Shown here: one piece after another, positions 6,318-62,768 of the stretch
Layout of the letters: each line of letters begins with the position of its first letter
Numbering within the stretch: the first letter of the stretch is position 1
Assembly: GCA_017640665.1 (NCBI GenBank)
Contig: JAEPQE010000001.1
Coordinates: forward strand, 186,001 to 250,000
DNA length: 64,000 nucleotides
Source of the DNA: Balneolaceae bacterium
GTDB taxonomy: Bacteria > Bacteroidota > Rhodothermia > Balneolales > Balneolaceae
Reading direction: 5' to 3'
Position numbers and translations under genes: made by a program
Notes under the pieces: generated by a model
Database searches by the model: none
What the model was told of the DNA's origin: nothing
Seen by the model: the letters and a program-made list of their open reading frames with translations, nothing else

Positions 6318-7502
6318 TTAGTTTAAATTTTCAAAAATTCCTGCAGCACCCATGCCACCACCAATGCACATAGTCACGAGCCCATATTTTGACCCACGGC
6401 TTTTCATTTCGTGTAAGATTTGAGTAGTAAGTTTAGCTCCTGTGCAACCTAGTGGATGCCCCATCGCAATCGCACCTCCGTTCACATTCGTTATTTCCTG
6501 ATCCAGCCCAAGTTCTCTTATCACTGCTAAAGATTGTGATGCGAATGCTTCATTCAATTCAATCAAATCAATACTTTTCAATGAAAGACCTGACTTATCC
6601 AGGACTTTCGGAACAGCTTCAACCGGACCAATCCCCATATATTCAGGAGCTACTCCAGCTACATCAAATCCAACATATCTGGCTATAGGAGTTAAACCAA
6701 GTTCATTCACTTTCTCTTCGCTCATCACCAGAACGGCAGCGGATGCATCATTCATTTGTGATGAGTTTCCAGCTGTAACACTTCCTCCGGCTTTAAACAC
6801 TGGGCGTAATTTATTGAGAACTTCTGTTGATGTATCAGCTCGTGGACCTTCATCCTTGCTAAAAATGAACGTTTCTTTTATAAGCTCCCCTTCTGCACTA
6901 ATTTTCTTTTCTACCACTTCTACAGGTGTAATTTGCCCACCGAACTTATCTTTCTCCCAGGCACTTACTGCTCTTTGGTGACTTTGATAAGCGAAGGCAT
7001 CCTGATCATCACGGCTGATTTTATACTTTTCGGCTACATTTTCTGCTGTCAGCCCCATGCTGATATACACTTCGGGACGATTGTCAACTAAATCAGGGTT
7101 TGGCTGAAATGATATCCCACCCATCGGAACCATGCTCATTGATTCTACACCACCTGCGATAATCACATCTGCTCCACCAGCCATAATCCGTTCAGCTGCC
7201 ATCGCAATAGTCTGCAATCCTGAAGAACAGAACCGGTTTACTGTTACTCCGGGAACAGAATCAGGCAATCCACCAAGCAATGCAATTTGGCGTGCGATAT
7301 TTAACCCTTGTGAAGCCTCCGGAAATGCACATCCCATCATCACGTCATCAACTTCAGCAGGATCCAGATCGGGCACGTGCTTCATTAAATCCTTGATAAC
7401 TTCCCCTCCCAATGTATCAGGATAGGTAAATCTTAAGGAACCTTTGTTTGCTTTACCGCAGGCAGTTCGTTTAGCAGAAACTATATATGCTTGTTTAGTC
7501 AT
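6318..7502 (-). CDS. fadA: Acetyl-CoA C-acyltransferase (3-ketoacyl-CoA thiolase)
   Basis: 394 residues, standard for a degradative thiolase. The nucleophilic Cys92 lies in [10 protein letters not shown], His349 in MGHPLG and the second active-site Cys379 in CIGGGMG. It performs the final beta-oxidation step, cleaving 3-ketoacyl-CoA with CoA to acetyl-CoA and a shortened acyl-CoA. It lies between the FadN-type protein and the dienoyl-CoA reductase in one minus-strand operon. All catalytic residues are present. An exclusively biosynthetic acetoacetyl-CoA thiolase is less likely in this context. Confidence 0.95.
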
Positions 7503-49715: not shown

Positions 49716-52694
49716 ATGATTAAAAAGATATTTCTATTGGGTATTTTGGGGATAGTTTCCATCCCCTCAATGGGTCAATCCATTGTTAACTATGGATCCT
49801 ATTTCGATAATTACTTAATTCGAACCATAGATAGAGAAGATGGATTGTATCGGGATGAAGTATATGACACTTTTCAGGATTCATCTGGTTTTATATGGAT
49901 TGCTAACTATTCTTTCTTGTTCAAATACGATGGTATTAAGCTCTCTCCATTTTCTGAAAGCTCTTACAGAACGGGAATTATTCCGGAGCTAAATACAAAT
50001 AAAAAAGAGGATTTAACCTTCCTGGGAGTTGAAGCTGGTATTCATACTATTAGTGATGATTCGTTAATAACAGTGAAGGATGAGATAGGACTTACGCTTA
50101 ATTCACTTTCATCGATGAGCTATACAAAAGGTGATTCCATTTTTATTGGCGACTATGAAGATGGTTTAGCCATCATATTTAGGGATACCGTTGTAGCCTT
50201 TTTTGATAGTACCAATGGAATTGCTGGAAATAAAATTGAACAAATTATTACAGATAGTAAGAATAGAGTGTGGGTTGCTACTACAACTGGTATCAGTGTT
50301 TTTCAAAATGGTGAGATTATAAATATAACGATTCCAGACGGTTTACCTGATAATTCTATTAATACAGTAAAAGAGATGAAAGATGGCAAAGTTTGGGCGG
50401 GTACTGAAACGGAAGGAATTGTAATTTTTGAAGATTTAAAACCAACAATAAATCTAACAAAAAAAGATGGACTAACAGATAACAGCGTTAGTTATATCGA
50501 GCAAAACCCTGCTGATAATTCTATTTGGATAGGCTTTAAAACCGAAGGGGTAGATCGTTTTATTAATAATAATTTTGAGAACCTCAATAATGAGTCTGGT
50601 CTTGTTTCAAATGATATCAATTCGATTAATTTTGACACTAAAAATCGGGTTTATATAGGAACTGAGTTTGGCTTATCAGTCTTAGTCCCAAGATTAGTTG
50701 ATGTAATTGATGAAAGTACGCCCGGTTTTTTATATACCGAAACTAATTCGGTGGATCAGGATTCGTCTGGAAAAATATTTGTTGGAACACTTGGAGGTGG
50801 ACTAATGATTTATGAAGACGGTGTTTGGAAAAACCACCGTTATTCTACCACAAGGTCTAATGAAAGCGTTTCGTCTATAAAAATTGCAAATGACAGCACT
50901 TATTATATAACAACTTCGGAATTTGGTATAGTTAAATATGTTAATGACGAAATTGTAGGTACTAAAAATGCTCAATCTGGACTAACTTCTAACTATATAG
51001 TATGCTTAGAAACTTATAAGAATGGAGATCTTTTAGTTGGGACATTTGATGGACTTAACATCATAAGCAATGATTGGGAAATATCTGATACCCTCACAAC
51101 AGATGATGGAATCCCTGGAAATGAGTGTTTTAATACGGCTGTAGATAAAGAAGGAGACATTTGGGTCTCTACCGTAAATAATGGGATTTATGAATTGCGG
51201 GGAACCAACGTTATCTCGCACTATGATACTTCAAATGGTTTGTTAGATAACAGAGTTTTTGGAATTACGGAAGATTCCAAAGGTGAAATTTGGGCTGCTT
51301 CTTTAAATTACGGTTTTTACAGAATTACAGATAATGGCTTAAATGTATACAAAGATTTACCGGATAATTTTGTGAGTGTTACAGAAGATAACTCTGGTAA
51401 TTTTTGGTTCTCATCCAACGGATATATCGCGCATGTTAAAAGATCAGATTTAGATAAGTTTGATCGGGGTGAAATGGAAAGGATTCAATATCAAAGGTTT
51501 ACTGTAGATGACGGCTTCCCTTCAGCGCGAGTAAATTATGGTAATAGCTCTTTAACCAAAAAAATCGATACGGGCGAAATATTAATTACAACAAAAAAAG
51601 GAATCGCCGTTATAAATCCGGAGAAAACCGAAGCAGATAGATCTACTTTCTTCCCATATTTTGATGGATTTTCAGTGGATGGTGAGTCTCGCTCCTTAAA
51701 CGAAGATATAATTGTAGAACCATCTGAAACAAGAATTGAAATCTCTTTTTCAGCGTTAAATATAAGCGCCCCAAATAAAACAAGATTTAGAACTAAACTT
51801 CTTGGCGTTGATGAAGATTGGAATTATTTGGGAAGCAGAACTACGACTTATTTTGACTTCCTTCCTAATGGCAAATATATATTGCAGGTTTCAGCACTTG
51901 ACCAAGCTGGTGTTTGGAATGATACGATTGCATCACTTGAATTTACAGTTCTTCCTCCATTCTATAAAACCTGGTGGTTTATCGGGTTATGTCTTTTGGG
52001 CTTCGTGAGCTTAGGGGCTGGAGGAGTTCAGATCAGGTCAAATATGAAACTCAGAACTTTAAATAGAGAACTTGAAACACAGCGTAAAATTCAAACAGAA
52101 CGGGAGCGGATTTCCAGAGAGCTACATGATAATGTAGGTTCACAAATAACCAATCTTATTACCGGTATTGAGATTAGTAATCTGCATGTTAAAAAAAATC
52201 AACAGGACAAAGCCCTGTCTCTTTTGCAAAATCTGGACTCTGACGCCAGGAGTGCTATGACTGATTTGAGAGAAACAATCTGGTTATTAGATAAAGAAGA
52301 AGTTCAATTTGAAATTTTCCTTGAGCATCTTAAGGGATTTATTAAACGACAGGAACGTTACCTGAAAGGAATGAAAATTGAATTTAAAGCAGATGTAAAT
52401 CCTCATAAAATTCTAGACCCAGTACAATCAATGAATTTAACGAGAATTATTCAGGAAGCGCTGAATAATGCCAGAAAATACTCTGAAGCCTCCACATTCA
52501 AGATATCTTTTAAACAAGAAGGCTCTAAATTCAATGTTATACTCTCTGATAATGGAGTTGGTATGGAAACAGAGGATTCTCATACTAGAGGAAATGGTAT
52601 TAAAAATATGCATGAAAGAGCAAAAGAGATCGGTGGCTCTCTTGTAATAACTTCTGATAAAAACTCTGGTACAGTACTTAAGTTAGATTTTTAA
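49716..52694 (+). CDS. Two-component sensor histidine kinase with beta-propeller sensor (Reg_prop/Y_Y_Y)
   Basis: 992 residues. Signal peptide (1-21), a sensor region of about 14 propeller strands or repeats (about 30-660; recurring motifs like DSSGFIWIANYS and NGLPDNSINTVKEMKDGKVWAGT), a Y_Y_Y Ig-like domain (about 665-748), one membrane helix (about 751-771), HisKA_3 with the phospho-His at 804 (SRELHDNVGSQ), and HATPase (DNGVGM near 945). No receiver is fused. This is the periplasmic-ligand sensor type often linked to polysaccharide use, but here no sugar genes are near. It pairs with the NarL-type regulator 54 bases downstream, separated by an ATACCC-N6-GGGTAT dyad. Confidence 0.93.
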   Translation: MIKKIFLLGILGIVSIPSMGQSIVNYGSYFDNYLIRTIDREDGLYRDEVYDTFQDSSGFIWIANYSFLFKYDGIKLSPFSESSYRTGIIPELNTNKKEDLTFLGVEAGIHTISDDSLITVKDEIGLTLNSLSSMSYTKGDSIFIGDYEDGLAIIFRDTVVAFFDSTNGIAGNKIEQIITDSKNRVWVATTTGISVFQNGEIINITIPDGLPDNSINTVKEMKDGKVWAGTETEGIVIFEDLKPTINLTKKDGLTDNSVSYIEQNPADNSIWIGFKTEGVDRFINNNFENLNNESGLVSNDINSINFDTKNRVYIGTEFGLSVLVPRLVDVIDESTPGFLYTETNSVDQDSSGKIFVGTLGGGLMIYEDGVWKNHRYSTTRSNESVSSIKIANDSTYYITTSEFGIVKYVNDEIVGTKNAQSGLTSNYIVCLETYKNGDLLVGTFDGLNIISNDWEISDTLTTDDGIPGNECFNTAVDKEGDIWVSTVNNGIYELRGTNVISHYDTSNGLLDNRVFGITEDSKGEIWAASLNYGFYRITDNGLNVYKDLPDNFVSVTEDNSGNFWFSSNGYIAHVKRSDLDKFDRGEMERIQYQRFTVDDGFPSARVNYGNSSLTKKIDTGEILITTKKGIAVINPEKTEADRSTFFPYFDGFSVDGESRSLNEDIIVEPSETRIEISFSALNISAPNKTRFRTKLLGVDEDWNYLGSRTTTYFDFLPNGKYILQVSALDQAGVWNDTIASLEFTVLPPFYKTWWFIGLCLLGFVSLGAGGVQIRSNMKLRTLNRELETQRKIQTERERISRELHDNVGSQITNLITGIEISNLHVKKNQQDKALSLLQNLDSDARSAMTDLRETIWLLDKEEVQFEIFLEHLKGFIKRQERYLKGMKIEFKADVNPHKILDPVQSMNLTRIIQEALNNARKYSEASTFKISFKQEGSKFNVILSDNGVGMETEDSHTRGNGIKNMHERAKEIGGSLVITSDKNSGTVLKLDF

Positions 52695-52720
52695 GAATAC
52701 CCTGATCAGGGTATTCTTTT
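52695..52720. promoter_or_regulatory. ATACCC-N6-GGGTAT dyad between kinase and regulator (also terminator-like)
   Basis: A perfect 22-bp palindrome (52695-52716) with core TACCCTGATCAGGGTA, followed by TTTT. The T-run makes it look like a terminator after the kinase gene. The ATACCC-N6-GGGTAT core (52697-52714) is identical in form to two sites at 56782 and 56828, so it may be an operator of the response regulator, or both. Confidence 0.65.
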
Positions 52721-52748
52721 ATTATTCATTATTCGCTTTTTTTAGACT

Positions 52749-53417
52749 ATGAATATTCAAATTGCAATTGTTGAAGACCAGGATAAGATCCGAAAAAACC
52801 TAATCACCCGACTAGATTTTTTTGATGATATAAACATTATTTTTGTTGCTGAGAACGCAGACATTGCCTTATCAAAGCTCCGCTCTCTTTCAGAAAAAAA
52901 TCTTCCTCAGGTTATACTTATGGATATTGAAATGCCTGGCAAAACTGGGATAGAAGCTACGCTCGAAATTAAATCCGAATTCCCTGAAATTGATATTCTT
53001 ATCCAAACAGTATTTGAAAATGAAGAAAAGATTTTTCAATCCATTCAGGCAGGAGCTTCGGGATACTTACTAAAAGACGATCCCATACAAAAGTATGTCG
53101 ATGCAATCCAAGAACTCGCAACAGGTGGTGCTGCTCTTTCATCAAGTATTGCTCTAAAGTTAATGAGTTTTGTAAAGTCTGAACAACAACAAAAAGAAAC
53201 AAAAGCGAAAGCGGCTCAAGTTGAGTTTTCGTTAAGTGATAGAGAGATAGACATTCTTAAAGGAATTGTGGATGATTTAACCGAACAACAACTAGGAGAA
53301 CAACTTTTTATAAGTCCTCATACTGTTCGAACCCACATAAAAAATATTTACAAGAAGCTTCATGTCCATTCACGTGCTTCAGCTGTTCGTTTTGCCATTA
53401 CAAAAGGCTTAGCTTAA
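52749..53417 (+). CDS. NarL/FixJ-family response regulator
   Basis: 222 residues. Receiver (3-125) with phospho-acceptor Asp59 (VILMDIEMP) and Lys near 107 (YLLKDD), linker, then LuxR-type HTH (about 157-218: LSDREIDILKGIVDDLTEQQLGEQLFISPHTVRTHIKNIYKKL). It is phosphorylated by the kinase upstream. NarL-type dimers bind inverted heptamers TACYNMT separated by two bases, and TACCC-N6-GGGTA sites of that form occur next to its own gene and in the promoter region of the PorE-like and giant surface-protein genes. Confidence 0.95.
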   Translation: MNIQIAIVEDQDKIRKNLITRLDFFDDINIIFVAENADIALSKLRSLSEKNLPQVILMDIEMPGKTGIEATLEIKSEFPEIDILIQTVFENEEKIFQSIQAGASGYLLKDDPIQKYVDAIQELATGGAALSSSIALKLMSFVKSEQQQKETKAKAAQVEFSLSDREIDILKGIVDDLTEQQLGEQLFISPHTVRTHIKNIYKKLHVHSRASAVRFAITKGLA

Positions 53418-53844
53418 TACCTGCTACCCCTCTATTAATTAAAGGTAACCTAAATTTTTTATTCCCTCGTTAAAACCGTTTTTTGGGGCAGTAACTTAAT
53501 AGGTTTATAACTTGCACTACTAAGCATCAAATCGGTTATATACGCTTATATAGAAATAAAACCAGCTATTCAGTTCTTTTCTTTTTCTCTTCTGAAAGTA
53601 GACTTTGAATTCAGTCTGGAGTTTAGTTCGTAAATTTACTTAAATGGTAGCCTTACTACTCTGAGAAACTATTAACTAGAGTAACATTGTCTTCAAATTT
53701 CTACTCTATATGAGAATATAAAAAGCTCTTTTACCCACATAAGGTGAGTTTAAAATTCTACAGTATTAAAAAAGGCCGGCAGCTTTCGCTGTCGACCCTT
53801 ATCAAGGTGGCATCTATGTGCCACTTACGCTTCTTTTCAAGAAT
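53418..53844. other. 427-base intergenic region between convergent genes
   Basis: No gene is supported here: reading frames are short and the sequence is AT-rich. From 53767 to 53826 it holds two hairpins belonging to the minus-strand gene. The remaining 350 bases show no repeat, tRNA or dyad that can be named. Confidence 0.7.
53767..53800 (-). terminator. Terminator of the PorE-like gene
   Basis: On the minus strand GGGTCGACAGC-GAAA-GCTGCCGGCC (imperfect stem, tetraloop) is followed by TTTTTT. A second hairpin, GTGGCA/TGCCAC (53807-53824), lies between it and the gene. Confidence 0.75.
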
Positions 53845-56691
53845 TTAGAAAGCTAGTCCCGCCCTAAACATTATCCCTGAGCCTGCTCCTCCGTTTTGTA
53901 TACCAAGTCCGGCAGATAGGAATTTGAATTTAGCTCTTGCACCAAACTCAAGCCAATGTGGTGCATCTACTACTGCCTGAGGGTAAACCTCATTCCCTTC
54001 TGAGATTGACTCTGGCTCGGGTTCTACAAAGCTCAACAGGTTATAATTATACGATGCGTAAGGTGAGACTTTTATATCACTCACTTCAAGGTTATATCGT
54101 AATCTTACCTTTAAAGGGATCCCCCAGCTTGTAGTAAAGAAGTCGTAGTTTTCGCCTCCAAAGGTAGATCGTTCTTCTTTGTTAAAGACCAGATAAGCAC
54201 TCAGTCCATAATCAAGTGAAAGAGGTAGTTTTGTTAACCTGGTCAAGTCTTTATACCTGATCCAATCTATTCCACCGCCCACTGCATTTCCTATGAAATA
54301 ACCATAGAAGTTGCGCTCTCCGGTTCCTTTGCTACTTTGAAACAAGACTCCTGCCCCACCTACGTTTGCGAATCCGTGCTGTCCGTTTCCTGTATGCGAC
54401 AAGAAATTGATGCTTGATCCTCCAAATGCGCTTATATCATTTCCATTTGCATCTATAAACCAGGCTGGTGAGGTTGATCGGGCTGTGGAAGTAGAGGTTC
54501 TGTTGTTGTTTGTATTTGTACTTACATAGGTAGTACTTCTTTCGGAATAATTACTGGTATCGTAACATGCTGCACCCTCAGGAATACCACCTGCCATTGC
54601 AGCCTGACGATAAAGCTCGTATAAATTTTCCGAAGAAAGAGCTTCTTCCTCTAATCGTTGTTGCTCAAGCACTCCTCCGGTACCTTCCTGGGCAACACTT
54701 CCTAATACCTTAACTTCAACCCTGCGGTTTTCCTGTCGACCTTCAGCTGTTTCGTTAGTAGCCCTTGGGTCTGTTTCCCCATACCCTTGTGCTGAGATAC
54801 GAGTTGATGAAATACCTTTTTCAATCACGTAGTTAACAACGGCTTCGGCACGAGCCTGGCTCAAGTCCATATTCGTTTCATCGGAGCCAACGTTATCGGT
54901 ATGCCCTCCAATCTCAATGATAAGATTTGATTGAGCCATTATTTCGTACAAACGATCCAATTCCTGAATGCTTTCCTCTCTCAGGTTATCACTTCCAGTA
55001 TCAAAATAGATGTTTTCGAGTACGATCCTTGCTCCTTCATTCGCCTCAGTTAAGCTAATGTCTTTTCTTACTTCTTCGTATCCTGAATTATCCTCCAGCC
55101 AACTAATTCTGGCTCTTCGGATTGAAGCATTCAGATCTGCCTGAGCCTGATTCATTTCTTTACTTAAATCAGACAGCTCATCGAATTCCTGATCCAGATT
55201 GGTTGAAGTACTGGCGAGCAATCGTTCATACTCAACTCTGTTTTGATCTATTCTGCTTAGAGCGTTTCTCATTCTAAAAAGCTCTGATCCAAGTTTTTCA
55301 GAAAAAGCAATGGAATCATCAACCATAGTTTTCAAATCTAACATCTCTGTTTGAAACAGGTATCCTCTTTGATTTGCAGTAATCAAATATCTTCTGCCAA
55401 ATGGTAGGTTGATAAGATAGTCTCCGGTTCTTGGGTTACTTGTAGAATACCCCAACTGCTCTCCGGTATCAAAATCACTCCAGTATAGTGTTGCTGCAAT
55501 CAAACTGTCTTCCTGGTTAGTTACATTTCCATAGATGGTAACTACCGGATCCGGACGCATATCGGGAGGTAGGATCATTCTAAAAATATCATCGTCGCCA
55601 AAACCATCTCCTTCGCCCGTTGTTTCTCTGGTAAAGTAAGCTACCGTTCCTGAAGCTGGAATTGTCATATCTTCATCGTCTAATACCGAATTGATATTTT
55701 TTCCCAGATTTACGGGTGTTGTCCAATTGTCCCAGCCCTCGCCAATCCTTCTTGTAACAAATAAATCGGAACCTCCCAAACCAGGATGCCCGTCAGAAGA
55801 AAAATATAGCGTTCTTCCATCGGCATTTAGAAATGGCCAGGTTTCGGAAGATGTTGTGTTTATTGTAGTAGAGATAGGCTTCGGCTCTGTCCATCTTCCG
55901 TTTCTTAGATGTGTTATATAAATATCTGTTTCGTAATCAGCGTCTTCAGCATTTTTACGTCCATGATAAGCTACAAAAATAAGTGTTTTGCCATCTGGTG
56001 ATAAGTTAGCCATTGACTCCCAGTTACTTGAGTTTACATCTCCTCCCAAATTACATGGCACGGTCCAACTGTCTCCAATTTTTGCACTATAAAAAAAATC
56101 TCCATTTCCGAACCTTCCTTCATAGTTCCCAAATACAATAGCTGTATTACCATCAGAAGAAAGTGATAAAATGCCTTCATGAGAATCGGTATTTATAATA
56201 GACCCCATATTATTGGGCTCACTCCAATTACCGTTACTTTGTTTGCTTGAATACCAAACATCCCCTCCACCAAATCCATTAGATCTGTCTGTTGAATAGA
56301 AATACATACGGCTTCCGTCTGAAGAGATTCTGGGCAGAAATTCATCCAGATCAGAATTTACATTAGCTCCTAAGTTATCGATATAGATTTCTTCATCAGG
56401 TGCTTCTAATAGTTCGATGATCTTTTCAACTTTCGCCTTATCGGCCCCGGAATAACGATTTATATAAAGTCTGTAATTTTCAATCGCTTTGTCCCAGTCT
56501 TGTAGAGCGGTATAACTTTCAGCTGCGTTCTTGAAATATTCAGGATCGGAAACAGCTAATCGTTCGTAAGCGTTAGCAGCAGATTGATACTTCCCACTTT
56601 CGAAAAGATCATCCGCGTCTTGTGCATATAAAAGAAAAGGTATCCCCAAAAAAGCCATTAGAAGAATACCCTTTTTTAAAAGAGTGTACAT
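53845..56691 (-). CDS. PorE-like outer-membrane protein (TPR-PD40-CRD-OmpA) with extra C-terminal barrel
   Basis: 948 residues. Signal peptide 1-23, TPR-like helices (25-95), PD40 beta-propeller (105-375; FLPRISSDGSRMYFYSTDRSNGFGGGD and similar), carboxypeptidase-regulatory domain (382-450), coiled coil (465-535), and OmpA C-terminal peptidoglycan-binding domain (561-662; GGHTDN, NRRVEV). This TPR/PD40/CRD/OmpA order is that of PorE, the T9SS component anchoring the machinery to peptidoglycan. Unlike PorE it continues with a further 280 residues: a Ser/Thr/Asn-rich linker and a predicted barrel (about 745-948). It could be a PorE paralogue dedicated to the surface protein encoded divergently at 56922. 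Confidence 0.87.
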   Translation of the reverse strand: MYTLLKKGILLMAFLGIPFLLYAQDADDLFESGKYQSAANAYERLAVSDPEYFKNAAESYTALQDWDKAIENYRLYINRYSGADKAKVEKIIELLEAPDEEIYIDNLGANVNSDLDEFLPRISSDGSRMYFYSTDRSNGFGGGDVWYSSKQSNGNWSEPNNMGSIINTDSHEGILSLSSDGNTAIVFGNYEGRFGNGDFFYSAKIGDSWTVPCNLGGDVNSSNWESMANLSPDGKTLIFVAYHGRKNAEDADYETDIYITHLRNGRWTEPKPISTTINTTSSETWPFLNADGRTLYFSSDGHPGLGGSDLFVTRRIGEGWDNWTTPVNLGKNINSVLDDEDMTIPASGTVAYFTRETTGEGDGFGDDDIFRMILPPDMRPDPVVTIYGNVTNQEDSLIAATLYWSDFDTGEQLGYSTSNPRTGDYLINLPFGRRYLITANQRGYLFQTEMLDLKTMVDDSIAFSEKLGSELFRMRNALSRIDQNRVEYERLLASTSTNLDQEFDELSDLSKEMNQAQADLNASIRRARISWLEDNSGYEEVRKDISLTEANEGARIVLENIYFDTGSDNLREESIQELDRLYEIMAQSNLIIEIGGHTDNVGSDETNMDLSQARAEAVVNYVIEKGISSTRISAQGYGETDPRATNETAEGRQENRRVEVKVLGSVAQEGTGGVLEQQRLEEEALSSENLYELYRQAAMAGGIPEGAACYDTSNYSERSTTYVSTNTNNNRTSTSTARSTSPAWFIDANGNDISAFGGSSINFLSHTGNGQHGFANVGGAGVLFQSSKGTGERNFYGYFIGNAVGGGIDWIRYKDLTRLTKLPLSLDYGLSAYLVFNKEERSTFGGENYDFFTTSWGIPLKVRLRYNLEVSDIKVSPYASYNYNLLSFVEPEPESISEGNEVYPQAVVDAPHWLEFGARAKFKFLSAGLGIQNGGAGSGIMFRAGLAF

Positions 56692-56781
56692 AGTTACCCC
56701 TTGATTTGTGCTGCCATATACTTATTGAGGCAGCGGTTTGTATTAACAAGGGAAATATTCGTTAAGCTTCAATCTCTTTAC

Positions 56782-56799
56782 ATACCCGATCCAGGGTAT
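56782..56799. promoter_or_regulatory. Operator 1: ATACCC-N6-GGGTAT dyad
   Basis: ATACCCGATCCAGGGTAT, perfect 6-bp arms, 91 bases upstream of the PorE-like ATG and 123 bases upstream of the giant-protein ATG. It fits the NarL 7-2-7 inverted heptamer layout (TACCC at each outer edge). Confidence 0.75.
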
Positions 56800-56827
56800 T
56801 TTTATTCCTAAGGTATTCTGCTTCATT

Positions 56828-56845
56828 ATACCCTCAATCGGGTAT
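56828..56845. promoter_or_regulatory. Operator 2: ATACCC-N6-GGGTAT dyad
   Basis: ATACCCTCAATCGGGTAT, centred 46 bases from operator 1. A potential ATG at 56844 overlaps its right arm, which argues against that ATG as the start of the giant-protein gene. Confidence 0.75.
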
Positions 56846-56921
56846 GTTGCAAAATCTCATCTCTTGGTTATTTAAACCGCCTTATAAAAGGCCATTAACA
56901 AAAAACCAGACAGATAAGATC

Positions 56922-59900
56922 ATGGGGTATTATAGACTTAACCAGCTTTACAAAGCACTATTCACTTTAACATTTTTATTAATTTTTTCCGGCACAACTA
57001 ACTTAAATGCTCAGGTTGTTGCAGGAATTGATACTCTTAATAAAGTATCAGGACAATGGGAATACTATGACTTCACAAGTCAAAAAGCTTTTTCCATTGC
57101 TGATACAGCCACTTATACACCAGATTTTTGGGGGAGTAGTAATGAAGGAGTGAATTTTGGAAAAGAATTTTCATCTCTCATTCCCGGAAAACGACTTTAT
57201 TTACTCGGAACAGGTGATATCGACACCGTAAAAACCGTACCTGAATGGACGGATGATGCTCCTTGGATAGACACCAGCTGGGACTGGCCAAATGGTACGC
57301 AAGGTCAACCTATATCACCAGATCAATTATGGGTTGTTTACACCAGTGAAGGTTTATATGCTGTTATGCAAATCGATGAATTACCCGGAGGTGACTTCGG
57401 CAACAGCTTTGTATTTAAATACAAATATATGAGCGAGGGTGGTACTAGTTTAACTGAAACCAACCTTAATGAAGATAACGGAAGTCAGATTGCAGGATCA
57501 GGGACCAGCACTTTTGGAACAGGCTTTGATTTCTCCGGAGAAGAAACGGCAGACAACGAAGACGCTGGAGATTATCAGCTTGATTTCGCTTTTGTAAGCA
57601 ATGAAGGTGTAAATTTTGGAAACGAAGGGAGCAGCTCGTTATCCTCTACGGGACGCAGGTTTTTGCTCTTAGGAACAGGAAATATTGATACTCTGAAGTC
57701 TGTTCCCAGCCGAACCGATGCAGCGCCATGGGTTACAGTTTCCTATGACTTTTCTGATGGAACTCAAGGTCAACCAATTTCAGTAGGTCAGCTTTGGGGA
57801 GTATTTACCAGAGAAGGTCATTATGCGGTTATGGAGATTACCGATTTACCGGATGGAAATTTCGGTAACTCATTCACCTTCGACTACAAGTATCAACCTA
57901 ATGGTACCCGCTTTTTTGAAGGCAGTGATGGAGTTGAGCCAGACCCGGTTCTTTCAATTGCCATTGAGGAAGGTGACAACCAAACTGTATTACCTGAAGC
58001 AGTGGCACCAGAATTTTTGCGGGTGCTCATTACCGATGAAAACGCAAACCTTATCTCAGACGCTACTGTCACTTTTAATTTCTCAGAAGTTCCCGATGAT
58101 ATTTTGGTAGCCGGTTCTCTCGCAACCAGTGCTCAGTCAAACGAGTCTGGAATTGCTCAGTCTTTTGTTAAAGCGGGTGATGCTCCCGGTGTATATAAGA
58201 TTAAAGCGACATTAGACTCTGATACTTCCAAATACGTAACATTTACCCTGAATGTAGAGGACACCAGCTCAACCTCTGCAGAACAACTCACAGGTTCAAC
58301 TACCAGTACTCTCGGGACTGGGTTTGACTTTTCTAGAGAAGAAACCGGAGATAATAATGATACAGGAGACTATCAACTCGATTTCGCTTTTGTAAGTAAC
58401 GAAGGTGTAAATTTTGGGAATGAGGGAAGTTCTTCACTTTCCGGAACCGGTCGAAGATTCCTGCTTTTGGGAACGGGTGATATCGACACTGTTAAGTCTG
58501 TACCCGAACGAGTTGATACAGCACCATGGGTTACTGTTTCCTATGATTTTTCGGACGGGACAGTAGGCCTGCCAATTGCCGTTGGTCAGCTTTGGGCGGT
58601 GTATACCCGTGAAGGACATTATGCCATCATGGAGATCACGGACCTCCCTGGGGGGAATTTTGGAACTTCATTTTCCTTCGATTATATCTATCAACCCAAC
58701 GGGACCCGTTTCTTTGAAGGTAGTGGCACAGTAGATCCCGATCCTGTCTATAATCTCGCAATCGTTTCAGGGAATAATCAACAAGTTGCTTTAAACACTT
58801 TCGCTCCGGAATCACTAATTGTAAAACTTACAGATGAAAATGGTGACGCAATTGCTGAAAAAGGCATAACATTTAGCTTTTCAAATATTCCTGATGGAGC
58901 AACCGGACAAGGTGGCCTTGAAGGTGACCTTACAACTGATATCAACGGAGAAGTTTCCACTCCCGTAAAAATCGGAGATTCAAATGGTCAATACTTTGTG
59001 AAAGCACAAATGGATGTTGATGCAGAAGTAAGTGTTGAGTTTACCTTAATTGGAGTAGAAGCCCAACCTGCCTCTATCGAAATAGCCTCCGGGGATAATC
59101 AATCAGCGTTTCCTACTGAACCGATTGAACATCCACTAAAAGTAATTGTAAAAGATGCTTCAGGAAATCCTATTACGAGTGGAGCCGGAGTCGATTTTGA
59201 AGTAACTCAACATCCTGATGCTGCAAATCCCGGAAACTTTACTTCAATCGATGGTATTCAGATAAGCTATGCAGGAACCGATTCGGAAGGTATTGCACAA
59301 ATCAAATACTTTGTGGGCACAAAACCCGGTACCTATGTTGTAAAGGCCTCTGTATCAGATTATGGAAGCATTGATCCGGTATTCTTTACCGTAAACGGAG
59401 CTGAACTTGAAGCCCCTTTAAATCTTAAAGCATCTTCAGGAGCTGGTAGCGTAAAATTAACATGGAATAAAGCAGCAGGAGCAAGTGCCTATAACATTTA
59501 CCGTTCACAAGGGGATGATAATCCAGCTTCTGCATCTTTTCTCAATATCACCGACGATACTATGTTTGTTGATGTGAATGTAACATCTGGAGAGGGATAC
59601 TTTTATTGGGTTACCTCCATCGATCATCAACTTAACGAAAGCGAAGATCGTGTAGGTCCTGCTTTCGCAACTCCAACGGATATACCGATTCCTGTTTCCG
59701 GAGAAGCAACAATTGTTGCGATTGCAGGAGATGGTTTTGGAAAACAATGGCAATACTTCGATTTCTCGAAAGAACTCGCTTCTTCTGAGGCTGATACTGG
59801 TGCATATTTCGCTGATATCCGTGGTACTTCTAATGAAGGTGTGAATTTCGGGAACGAAAGTGCTCCTCAAATAGAAGGAAGGAGAATCATTCGTCTTGAA

Positions 59901-62768
59901 GATGGTTCACTTGAGGATGTAACAAGTATTCCTTTATGGACAAATGAAGAGCCCTGGATTTCTGTAAGCTGGATGGGTTCAGGTACCAGCGGTCAACCAG
60001 TAGCGGCTGGTCAACTTTGGGGGGTATATACCCGTGAGGGAAATTATGCCGTAATGCAAATAACAGATGTGCCAGAAGCCTTTGGTGATACCCTTTCCTT
60101 CCGCTACAAATATCAAACCGGTGGAACGCCCATATTTTCTGAAGGTGGAACTTCTTCTGATCCGGATACTATGGTTGCCGTAATGGGTAACAATCAAAAA
60201 GGACTACCCGGAAAATTACTTGAAGACCCTTTGGCTGTTTTGGTAGTTGACGAAGATACAAATGGAGTTGCCGGAGTTACCGTACATTTTGATATTACTT
60301 CGGTACCCGATGCTTCTACCGGAGCATTACTTACTTCTACATCAGCAATTACTAATGAAGATGGTTTGGCATTCAGCTTCTTCACTTTAGGTGATGCAGC
60401 AGGTTCATATGAAGTGACAGCTTCAGCAGATGGAGTAAACGATGTTATCTTCGCCAATATCGCTGAGGAAGCACAACCTCCTCAACCTGTTACTTTACTG
60501 GAAATCCGAGATCGCTCTTCTGAAGCACTTTCTCTGGTTTGGACTCAAAGTAAAGATCCAGACTTCCTTCGATATCGGATTTACATGAGCACAGATAGTG
60601 AAAATTTTGCTCTGGTTGATTCTACCCGCAGAGATGGTTTTGCAGTTGATTCTGGACAAACGGTGACGGGACTTACTGAACTGGTAAATTACTCATTCAA
60701 AGTTACTGTGGTAAATAATAACTTTGTTGAAAGTGAGTTTTCGAATGTTCTCACTTCTTTTCCGAAACCTACCCCGGATCAACCACAAAATGTGATGGCT
60801 GTTGCTGCAGATGGAGCCGTTCAAATTAACTGGGATGCTGTTGATTCAACCTTCTTTGACTTTTACTACGTGTACTATGGAGAAGATGGATTTGGCATCA
60901 ACATGGCCGATACGGTGTATGGTTATGAAAATACAAGTACCGTAATCAGTGGACTTGAAAATGAAACCACCTACCAATTCTATGTATTTGCTGTAAACCG
61001 ATTTGGGGTCCAAAGTGCGTTTCCAGACAAAATACTTGCCACTCCTCAATCCACATATGAAGAACAAGAAATCACCTTGCCTGATTTAATTAATGGAGTT
61101 TCTTCATGGGCTGATGTTGATAACGATGGCGATCTTGATCTTCTTCTTACCGGTCAGGAACAAGCTGATGGAGACCCTTTGACTTTACTTTATGTGAATG
61201 ATGGAGACGGTAACCTTTCTGATTCTGGGGAATCTTTAGAAGGAGTAATAAACAGCGATGTATACTGGTTCGATATTGACCAGAATGAATTTGTTGACTT
61301 GATTATCTCCGGGGAATCTTCTGAAGGTCCCATCACAAAAGTATATCTCAATAATGAAGGAAGTCTGACTGATGCCGGTTTTACTCTTCCTGGTTTAGGT
61401 GATGGAATGGTCTCCCCTTCTGATTATGATAACGATGGTGATATTGACTTCTTAGTTGCTGGTGCAACAGCAGAAGGACCACAAACTCTTTTGATTAAAA
61501 ATAACGGCGCTGGTTCTTTTGAGCCAATTGCTTTCCCATTCACAGGCTTTACCAAAGCGGCGGCTGCATGGGGAGATTCAAACGGAGATGGCAGAATTGA
61601 TCTTCTGATCTCCGGAGAAGTTTCTGATGGAAGCATTATAACTATGTTGTATCGATATCTGGGTAACGATCAATTCTTCCTTGCTGAATCAAGCTTCCAG
61701 GGAGTAATTAATGGAACATTGGCATTCACAGATTTCGATCTGGATACTGATCAGGATGTCCTGATCACCGGTTATACAGATGCTGCTCAAACCAATCTCT
61801 TCACAGGTTTTTACCAGAATAACGGGTTAGATTTTGAGTTGTTCTTCTCATCGAATTCCAATCCTCCAGCAAAAGCTGTAGCTGCAGGACAAGCAAAAAG
61901 TCGTGCAGTAGTTGGGGATTATGATAATGACGGAGATCCGGATGTACTTTTAAATGCAAATGGCGGAGCTTCAATCTTCAATAACAACCGAGGTAAAATT
62001 GCAGAAGAAAAGCTGGACATTAGTGGAGCTGGTTCTGTAACCTGGGCCGATTACGACGGAGACGGCGATCTGGATATCATTATAACCGGTTCCGGCTCCA
62101 AAGTATTATCTAATACCACCGCTATCAAAAACACAGCACCATCAGTTCCGGAGAATTTGATGTTTGAAGTGGCCGATGATACGGTAAAACTAAGCTGGAA
62201 TCCATCTTCAGACGCTCAGACTCCATCTCCTTCTTTAACTTATAATGTGCGAATCGGTACTTCGGCAGGAGCATCAGATATTCTTTCTGCGAATGCTGAT
62301 CTCTCGACTGGAAAACTGAAAATTCTGGCTAATGGAAATGCCGGGTACAAAACCGGATTACTACTACAGGGACTTCCAAACGGTACCTACTTCTGGCAGG
62401 TTCAGGCAGTAGATAATTCCTTCCTTGGGTCACCATTTTCGGCTGAAGCACAGTTTGAAGTAATGACCAGTCTGGTGTCTAATGAAGTAATTGAAGACTT
62501 GCCAACTAAAGTTGCGCTAGAACAGAATTATCCAAACCCATTCAATCCAAGCACAACTATCAGTTACTCGGTACCTAAAGAAGCAGACGTTAGCTTACTG
62601 GTATTCGATATTACCGGACGGCTGGTGGGCACACTTGTTCAGCAACGCAAAACAGCCGGTAATCACACCATAGCATTTGATGCACAAAACTTATCGAGTG
62701 GGGTTTACATCTATCGGCTTCAGATAGGAAATCAATTAATCACAAAAAAGATGACCTTAATTAAGTAA
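56922..62768 (+). CDS. Giant T9SS-sorted surface protein with repeated modules
   Basis: 1948 residues from ATG 56922, which opens a signal peptide (MGYYRLNQLYKALF...NLNAQ). The upstream ATG at 56844 lies in an operator. Four copies of a ~150-residue unnamed module (about 32-165, 187-336, 453-602, 927-1075; motif SNEGVNFGNE, then GQLWGVYTREGHYAVMEITDLP) are mixed with Ig-like Big_1 domains, three or four fibronectin type III domains, and six FG-GAP/VCBS repeats (about 1387-1727; DYDNDGDIDFLVAG type, calcium binding). The end (1866-1948) is a T9SS type A sorting domain: NYPNPFNPSTTISYSVP, GVYIYRL. It is exported and anchored on the cell surface. Adhesion is likely; no enzyme domain was seen. 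Confidence 0.92.
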   Translation: MGYYRLNQLYKALFTLTFLLIFSGTTNLNAQVVAGIDTLNKVSGQWEYYDFTSQKAFSIADTATYTPDFWGSSNEGVNFGKEFSSLIPGKRLYLLGTGDIDTVKTVPEWTDDAPWIDTSWDWPNGTQGQPISPDQLWVVYTSEGLYAVMQIDELPGGDFGNSFVFKYKYMSEGGTSLTETNLNEDNGSQIAGSGTSTFGTGFDFSGEETADNEDAGDYQLDFAFVSNEGVNFGNEGSSSLSSTGRRFLLLGTGNIDTLKSVPSRTDAAPWVTVSYDFSDGTQGQPISVGQLWGVFTREGHYAVMEITDLPDGNFGNSFTFDYKYQPNGTRFFEGSDGVEPDPVLSIAIEEGDNQTVLPEAVAPEFLRVLITDENANLISDATVTFNFSEVPDDILVAGSLATSAQSNESGIAQSFVKAGDAPGVYKIKATLDSDTSKYVTFTLNVEDTSSTSAEQLTGSTTSTLGTGFDFSREETGDNNDTGDYQLDFAFVSNEGVNFGNEGSSSLSGTGRRFLLLGTGDIDTVKSVPERVDTAPWVTVSYDFSDGTVGLPIAVGQLWAVYTREGHYAIMEITDLPGGNFGTSFSFDYIYQPNGTRFFEGSGTVDPDPVYNLAIVSGNNQQVALNTFAPESLIVKLTDENGDAIAEKGITFSFSNIPDGATGQGGLEGDLTTDINGEVSTPVKIGDSNGQYFVKAQMDVDAEVSVEFTLIGVEAQPASIEIASGDNQSAFPTEPIEHPLKVIVKDASGNPITSGAGVDFEVTQHPDAANPGNFTSIDGIQISYAGTDSEGIAQIKYFVGTKPGTYVVKASVSDYGSIDPVFFTVNGAELEAPLNLKASSGAGSVKLTWNKAAGASAYNIYRSQGDDNPASASFLNITDDTMFVDVNVTSGEGYFYWVTSIDHQLNESEDRVGPAFATPTDIPIPVSGEATIVAIAGDGFGKQWQYFDFSKELASSEADTGAYFADIRGTSNEGVNFGNESAPQIEGRRIIRLEDGSLEDVTSIPLWTNEEPWISVSWMGSGTSGQPVAAGQLWGVYTREGNYAVMQITDVPEAFGDTLSFRYKYQTGGTPIFSEGGTSSDPDTMVAVMGNNQKGLPGKLLEDPLAVLVVDEDTNGVAGVTVHFDITSVPDASTGALLTSTSAITNEDGLAFSFFTLGDAAGSYEVTASADGVNDVIFANIAEEAQPPQPVTLLEIRDRSSEALSLVWTQSKDPDFLRYRIYMSTDSENFALVDSTRRDGFAVDSGQTVTGLTELVNYSFKVTVVNNNFVESEFSNVLTSFPKPTPDQPQNVMAVAADGAVQINWDAVDSTFFDFYYVYYGEDGFGINMADTVYGYENTSTVISGLENETTYQFYVFAVNRFGVQSAFPDKILATPQSTYEEQEITLPDLINGVSSWADVDNDGDLDLLLTGQEQADGDPLTLLYVNDGDGNLSDSGESLEGVINSDVYWFDIDQNEFVDLIISGESSEGPITKVYLNNEGSLTDAGFTLPGLGDGMVSPSDYDNDGDIDFLVAGATAEGPQTLLIKNNGAGSFEPIAFPFTGFTKAAAAWGDSNGDGRIDLLISGEVSDGSIITMLYRYLGNDQFFLAESSFQGVINGTLAFTDFDLDTDQDVLITGYTDAAQTNLFTGFYQNNGLDFELFFSSNSNPPAKAVAAGQAKSRAVVGDYDNDGDPDVLLNANGGASIFNNNRGKIAEEKLDISGAGSVTWADYDGDGDLDIIITGSGSKVLSNTTAIKNTAPSVPENLMFEVADDTVKLSWNPSSDAQTPSPSLTYNVRIGTSAGASDILSANADLSTGKLKILANGNAGYKTGLLLQGLPNGTYFWQVQAVDNSFLGSPFSAEAQFEVMTSLVSNEVIEDLPTKVALEQNYPNPFNPSTTISYSVPKEADVSLLVFDITGRLVGTLVQQRKTAGNHTIAFDAQNLSSGVYIYRLQIGNQLITKKMTLIK
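57500..57935 (+). repeat. Internal DNA repeat, copy 1 (module 2 of the surface protein)
   Basis: Closely matches 58298-58733 at an offset of about 798 bases. The encoded modules share long runs such as GDYQLDFAFVSNEGVNFGNE and differ at only a few positions. Recent duplication or gene conversion is likely. Confidence 0.7.
58298..58733 (+). repeat. Internal DNA repeat, copy 2 (module 3 of the surface protein)
   Basis: Second copy of the module at 57500-57935, separated from it by an Ig-like domain. Recombination between the two would delete or add about 266 residues in frame. Confidence 0.7.

Follow-up and report, generated by a model that had tools for sequence, protein, structure and literature searches.

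Conserved inverted repeats predict NarL-type operators for a propeller-kinase regulator and its neighboring envelope and type IX cargo genes in Balneolaceae

The window studied here, a stretch of 64,000 nucleotides from a Balneolaceae bacterium, contains a locus of four genes and three inverted repeats, the coordinates of which are collected in Table 1. The first gene encodes a propeller sensor kinase, in which Pfam finds Reg_prop repeats and Y_Y_Y together with HisKA_3/HATPase_c. The regulator that follows had been called NarL-type, and Pfam indeed detects a receiver and then a GerE domain, both over their curated cut-offs (Response_reg, 4.8e-18; GerE, 3.4e-18). Its closest solved chains are those of VraR, ChrA and NarL, its score with the NarL equivalog model is 104 bits against a cut-off of 250, and its recognition helix, HTVRTHIKNIYKKLHVHSRA, is nearly invariant among the aligned regulators. 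The third gene product had been described as PorE-like, a name that is apt for the TPR, PD40 and OmpA domains in common but not for the family as a whole, the NCBIfam PorE score being 187 bits against a cut-off of 600; the CHU_0125 score is likewise far under its cut-off. The C-terminal extension of this protein, about 250 residues long (window 53848-54624, minus strand), is conserved and lacks a Pfam match, and structure prediction of the C-terminal region gave a mean pLDDT of 37, too low for use. The fourth gene, divergent from the third, encodes a type A T9SS cargo protein, with a C-terminal Por_Secre_tail match (PF18962, 2.8e-14) and 48.5 bits for TIGR04183 (cut-off 23). A mechanical list of open reading frames places the start of this gene at 56844, inside dyad 3; we prefer the start at 56922 given by the original prediction, since a signal-peptide-like sequence follows it and 56844 would overlap the conserved putative operator and promoter.

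Table 1. Genes, predicted operators and candidate promoter elements of the locus (window positions).
Feature	Position	Strand	Sequence	Assignment	Basis
Histidine kinase (Reg_prop propeller, Y_Y_Y, HisKA_3, HATPase_c)	49716..52694	+		presumed sensor	ORF, Pfam; orthologues likewise placed in relatives
Dyad 1	52697-52714	.	ATACCCTGATCAGGGTAT	predicted operator, regulator gene	pattern scan; conserved in orthologous loci
-7 box, regulator promoter	52737..52744	+	TTTTTTTA	candidate, weak	23 bp past dyad 1 core
NarL-type response regulator (receiver + GerE)	52749..53417	+			Pfam; solved-structure matches; recognition helix
TPR/PD40/OmpA-domain envelope protein	53845..56691	-		putative target	ORF, Pfam, NCBIfam
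-7 box, OmpA-domain gene	56752..56759	-	AATATTTC	candidate	23 bp past dyad 2 core
Dyad 2	56782-56799	.	ATACCCGATCCAGGGTAT	predicted operator nearest OmpA-domain gene	aligned, conserved in 6 genomes
Dyad 3	56828-56845	.	ATACCCTCAATCGGGTAT	predicted operator nearest large cargo gene	exact in 6 aligned genomes
-7 region, cargo gene	56866..56874	+	GGTTATTTA	candidate	gap-free spacing from dyad 3, 6 genomes
Large T9SS cargo protein (Big_1, fn3, FG-GAP, type A sorting domain)	56922..62768	+		putative target	ORF, Pfam, NCBIfam

A pattern scan of the window returned the three ATACCC-N6-GGGTAT dyads exactly where they had been noted, their identity of form extending to the twelve fixed bases and the N6 differing among the three. 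Dyad 1, only 34 bp from the regulator start codon, is part of a 22-bp perfect palindrome, GAATACCCTGATCAGGGTATTC. The claim that the window holds no further copy also stands: none was found with 0-1 mismatches, and the single extra match has 2. From base composition, 0.17 exact dyads would be expected per genome and 0.0002 in 4.15 kb, and three copies within such a distance are, as proposed, far above chance. Scanning the whole genome (3,796,084 bases) gave four exact copies in total, and 0 matches with the reversed pattern as control; with just one copy beyond the three, there is no repeat or terminator family in this genome, and the repeat-family reading was dropped. The fourth exact dyad (G000:C4:132917-132934, locus L050) lies upstream of a thioredoxin-like gene that is followed by a PDZ-like secreted-protein gene, and a one-mismatch dyad (G000:C1:931414-931431, locus L005) lies between two lipoprotein-like genes; both are possible, weak additional targets. 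As to the letters, NarL heptamers have the consensus TACYYMT, and the original prediction of an exact fit holds for the 7-2-7 spacing of the 16-bp core and for the TAC...GTA ends, but not for heptamer position 7, which is mostly G/A and not T: the heptamer here reads TACCCTG/TACCCNR. The inverted 7-2-7 geometry itself is matched exactly and conserved, and binding by a regulator dimer is predicted from it.

Conservation of the sites was examined in 92 genomes of the family, 9 with an orthologous regulator (at least 57% identity) and 83 without, and sites were found beside the orthologous genes of relatives. In 9/9 orthologous loci a regulator-proximal dyad sits roughly at -50 relative to the start codon, exact in eight and with one mismatch in G060. 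Paired dyads precede the cargo gene in six genomes, with dyad 3 exact in all six and dyad 2 carrying a single mismatch in two of them, G002 and G066. The locus of G066 lacks the OmpA-domain gene yet retains both dyads; the loci of G014 and G060 lack both target genes, and the regulator's site alone is left; and in G001, a congeneric genome, the regulator and the sites are both missing. Exact sites outside tRNA genes number 26 in the nine regulator-bearing genomes (mean 2.9) versus 12 in the 83 lacking the regulator (0.14), the latter being 41 minus 29 in a tRNA-Ser variable arm, a context counted by pattern. At least two such sites occur in 7/9 versus 1/83 genomes (Fisher p=3e-8, uncorrected for phylogeny). 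Most of the extra exact copies in relatives belong to this one tRNA-Ser variable arm, one case of which was confirmed by ARAGORN: the long arm makes an exact ATACCC-N6-GGGTAT in 27 Balneolaceae genomes (locus L036, tRNA-Ser 6387-6476, and 26 others) and is thus a decoy in motif scans. Several relatives carry duplicated or shortened kinase copies around the same regulator (L101 3905-9950; L041 1262-6104; L102 and L103 10742-12550), as if several sensors fed one regulator.

The dyads stand in a fixed relation to promoter-like elements. The Bacteroidota -7 element is TAnnTTTG, and scoring this box at all offsets from the dyads gave a single peak, exactly 23 bp past the dyad core (0/500 shuffles). 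The same 23-bp peak was obtained with nine held-out target promoters, which had not been used in noticing the element (mean 3.78 of 6, against 1.88 expected; 0/2000 shuffles), and 23 bp is also the best offset for the regulator promoters, at lower strength (p=0.024 for the maximum). In the divergent region the stretch from each dyad to the AT-rich element on that dyad's side aligns without gaps in 6/6 genomes, whereas the distance from dyad to dyad varies from 39 to 46 bp across the six. With the offset of 23 bp the dyad centre falls near -43 relative to the presumed start, the -7 boxes being degenerate and the start sites assumed; by analogy this would be the position of a NarL-type activator, and NarL of E. 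coli is an activator at 7-2-7 sites, one example being the site at -44.5 of the ogt promoter (PMC7419079). On this geometry the transcript of the regulator gene would be almost leaderless. Genome-wide target scans gave 115 sites with 2 mismatches against 92 in the control, no clear excess, and 18 combinations of dyad and -7 box against 20/18 in controls, no excess; given this we claim no larger regulon, and the regulon of this genome appears compact, consisting of the three sites and no more than one or two additional candidates.

Two other functions of the same dyads were considered. Intrinsic terminators or RNA hairpins, with dyad 1 ending the kinase transcript, are suggested by folding, in which dyad 1 forms a stem of 11 bp with a T-rich stretch behind it, and by the terminator-like score of dyad 2. 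The T-tract is, however, clear only at dyad 1 of this genome and partial at its dyad 2, and most orthologous sites do not have it although their half-sites are conserved; the genes on either side of dyads 2 and 3 are divergent, so that a terminator is unnecessary there, and these dyads show no compensatory changes, the letters themselves being fixed; and a terminator would not be expected to keep a fixed distance from a -7 box. We regard this reading as very improbable and reject it on the loss of the T-tracts in orthologues. A change of sign, with the same regulator binding the same sites to repress all three promoters or some of them, for instance in autorepression, is unlikely though less far-fetched: dyad 1 is so close to the start codon that a bound dimer could block transcription. 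Against repression, all target classes have the 23-bp offset in common, and a centre near -43, with the dyad in place of the -33/-35 element, is typical of NarL-type activators (PMC7419079).

The dyads might also be operators of another regulator, chiefly a paralogous one, or be common to both. A second propeller-kinase/NarL-type system (L088 9785-13671; G000:C1, ~825.8-829.7 kb) is present in this genome and in 11 relatives. Its regulator (G000:C1:825788-826441) is about 45% identical to the first, and a BNR/sortilin-like T9SS cargo gene adjoins the regulator in every locus examined. The recognition helix of the paralogue is near-identical, and its system has dyads of the same geometry and similar letters, AATACC..GGGGTAT before the regulator and AATACYCC..GGGYGAT before the cargo gene. 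These letters nevertheless differ consistently from ATACCC-N6-GGGTAT, which tracks the orthologue, and three genomes that keep the paralogous regulator alone (G040, G044 and G011) have no exact site of that form. Operation by another regulator is therefore judged improbable, and assignment of the dyads to the adjacent regulator is retained.

Beyond the family, an unbiased search of 82 upstream regions of regulator homologues from the FCB group, covering all 5-mer dyads with gaps of 0-12, ranked ATACC-N8-GGTAT top, with 17 regions against a maximum of 4 for any dyad in 100 mononucleotide shuffles, the loci being phylogenetically related and the counts not independent events. In L106-L108 and L119, from Ignavibacteriae, Chlorobi and one Bacteroidetes genome, whose regulators are 43-54% identical, dyads with one mismatch are located between about -53 and -60. 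Saprospiraceae (L121-L123, L179) have TCCCC..GGGGTA at about -80, and several Bacteroidales have ATCCCAT-N4-ATGGGAT or near forms at -54 from the regulator start codon, with the 16-bp geometry kept and the letters changed (such dyads occur in L135, L142, L144, L147, L149, L151, L158 and L178). No recognisable dyad of this form was seen in L110, L120 and many homologues below 43% identity. Genes with T9SS sorting domains occur in 30/80 loci of regulator homologues, often directly 3'. A dyad with 0-1 mismatch starts about 65-115 bp upstream of a T9SS cargo gene in L108, L119, L124 and the Balneolaceae orthologues, and sister systems in relatives and other phyla have T9SS cargo beside the regulator, some with a dyad.

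Taken together, the rarity and conservation of the sites, their co-occurrence with the regulator and their promoter-like geometry make it highly likely that the dyads are operators from which the adjacent NarL-type regulator activates the three promoters, with the kinase as its sensor. As domains and gene order suggest, the propeller-domain kinase would sense a periplasmic cue and phosphorylate the regulator, a dimer of which would bind the inverted 7-2-7 site of 16 bp, with its centre some 43 bp ahead of the start of transcription, and activate the regulator gene itself together with those for the OmpA-domain envelope protein and the large T9SS cargo protein. The divergent genes would have one dyad each, and activation would be of class II, with one dimer per promoter. 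The dyads probably serve as activator operators that also autoregulate the regulator gene, positive autoregulation from a near-leaderless promoter being probable, and the locus is very probably a small, self-contained, NarL-like gene switch. The original prediction of a two-component surface regulon thus largely holds in its conserved sites that co-occur with the regulator, while binding, phosphotransfer, activation and the sensed signal stay predicted. That this is an undescribed regulon built of known parts, namely NarL-like geometry, a propeller kinase and T9SS cargo, is well supported. More tentatively, and with the balance slightly against it, the homologues may form an undescribed propeller-kinase/NarL-type lineage across Balneolota, Ignavibacteriota/Chlorobi and Bacteroidota that uses a single drifting dyad of 16 bp for autoregulation and acts directly as an activator of individual T9SS cargo genes, independent of a PorXY-SigP-type cascade.

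Few Balneolota regulators have a known DNA site; a literature search turned up LexA (PMC7739468), and for the motif letters the listed papers contained incidental matches only. Here sequence alone yields a predicted operator, promoter geometry and targets, the -7-like box at a fixed 23 bp after the dyad being new. The site and its geometry offer a handle for predicting NarL-type regulons across the FCB group; they connect propeller-domain two-component systems, as a large group, with individual genes for secreted cargo, and make it possible to test directly if T9SS cargo genes are served by regulators of their own.

Among known systems, the VraR/LiaR-type envelope-stress regulators share the receiver-GerE architecture, VraR (5hev) being the closest solved full-length homologue, but differ in phyla, kinase type, targets and site letters. 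PorX is not known as a GerE-type regulator, and the PorXY-SigP cascade reaches the secretion machinery by way of an ECF sigma factor; in the present locus it is single cargo genes that seem to be targeted directly. In Porphyromonas gingivalis, PorXY-SigP ties two-component control to type IX secretion (PMC4800418). FimS/FimR of the same species is also a Bacteroidota-group two-component system with a surface-structure target, the promoter of which its regulator directly binds and activates (PMC1974823); its targets are fimbriae, those here T9SS type A cargo. NarX/NarL and NarQ/NarP of Escherichia coli share the receiver-GerE regulator, the inverted 16-bp 7-2-7 site with TAC...GTA ends and a HisKA_3-type kinase, and activation near -44.5 (PMC7419079) compares with the centre near -43 proposed here; their sensor is for nitrate, whereas the present one has a propeller domain and the putative targets are surface and envelope genes.
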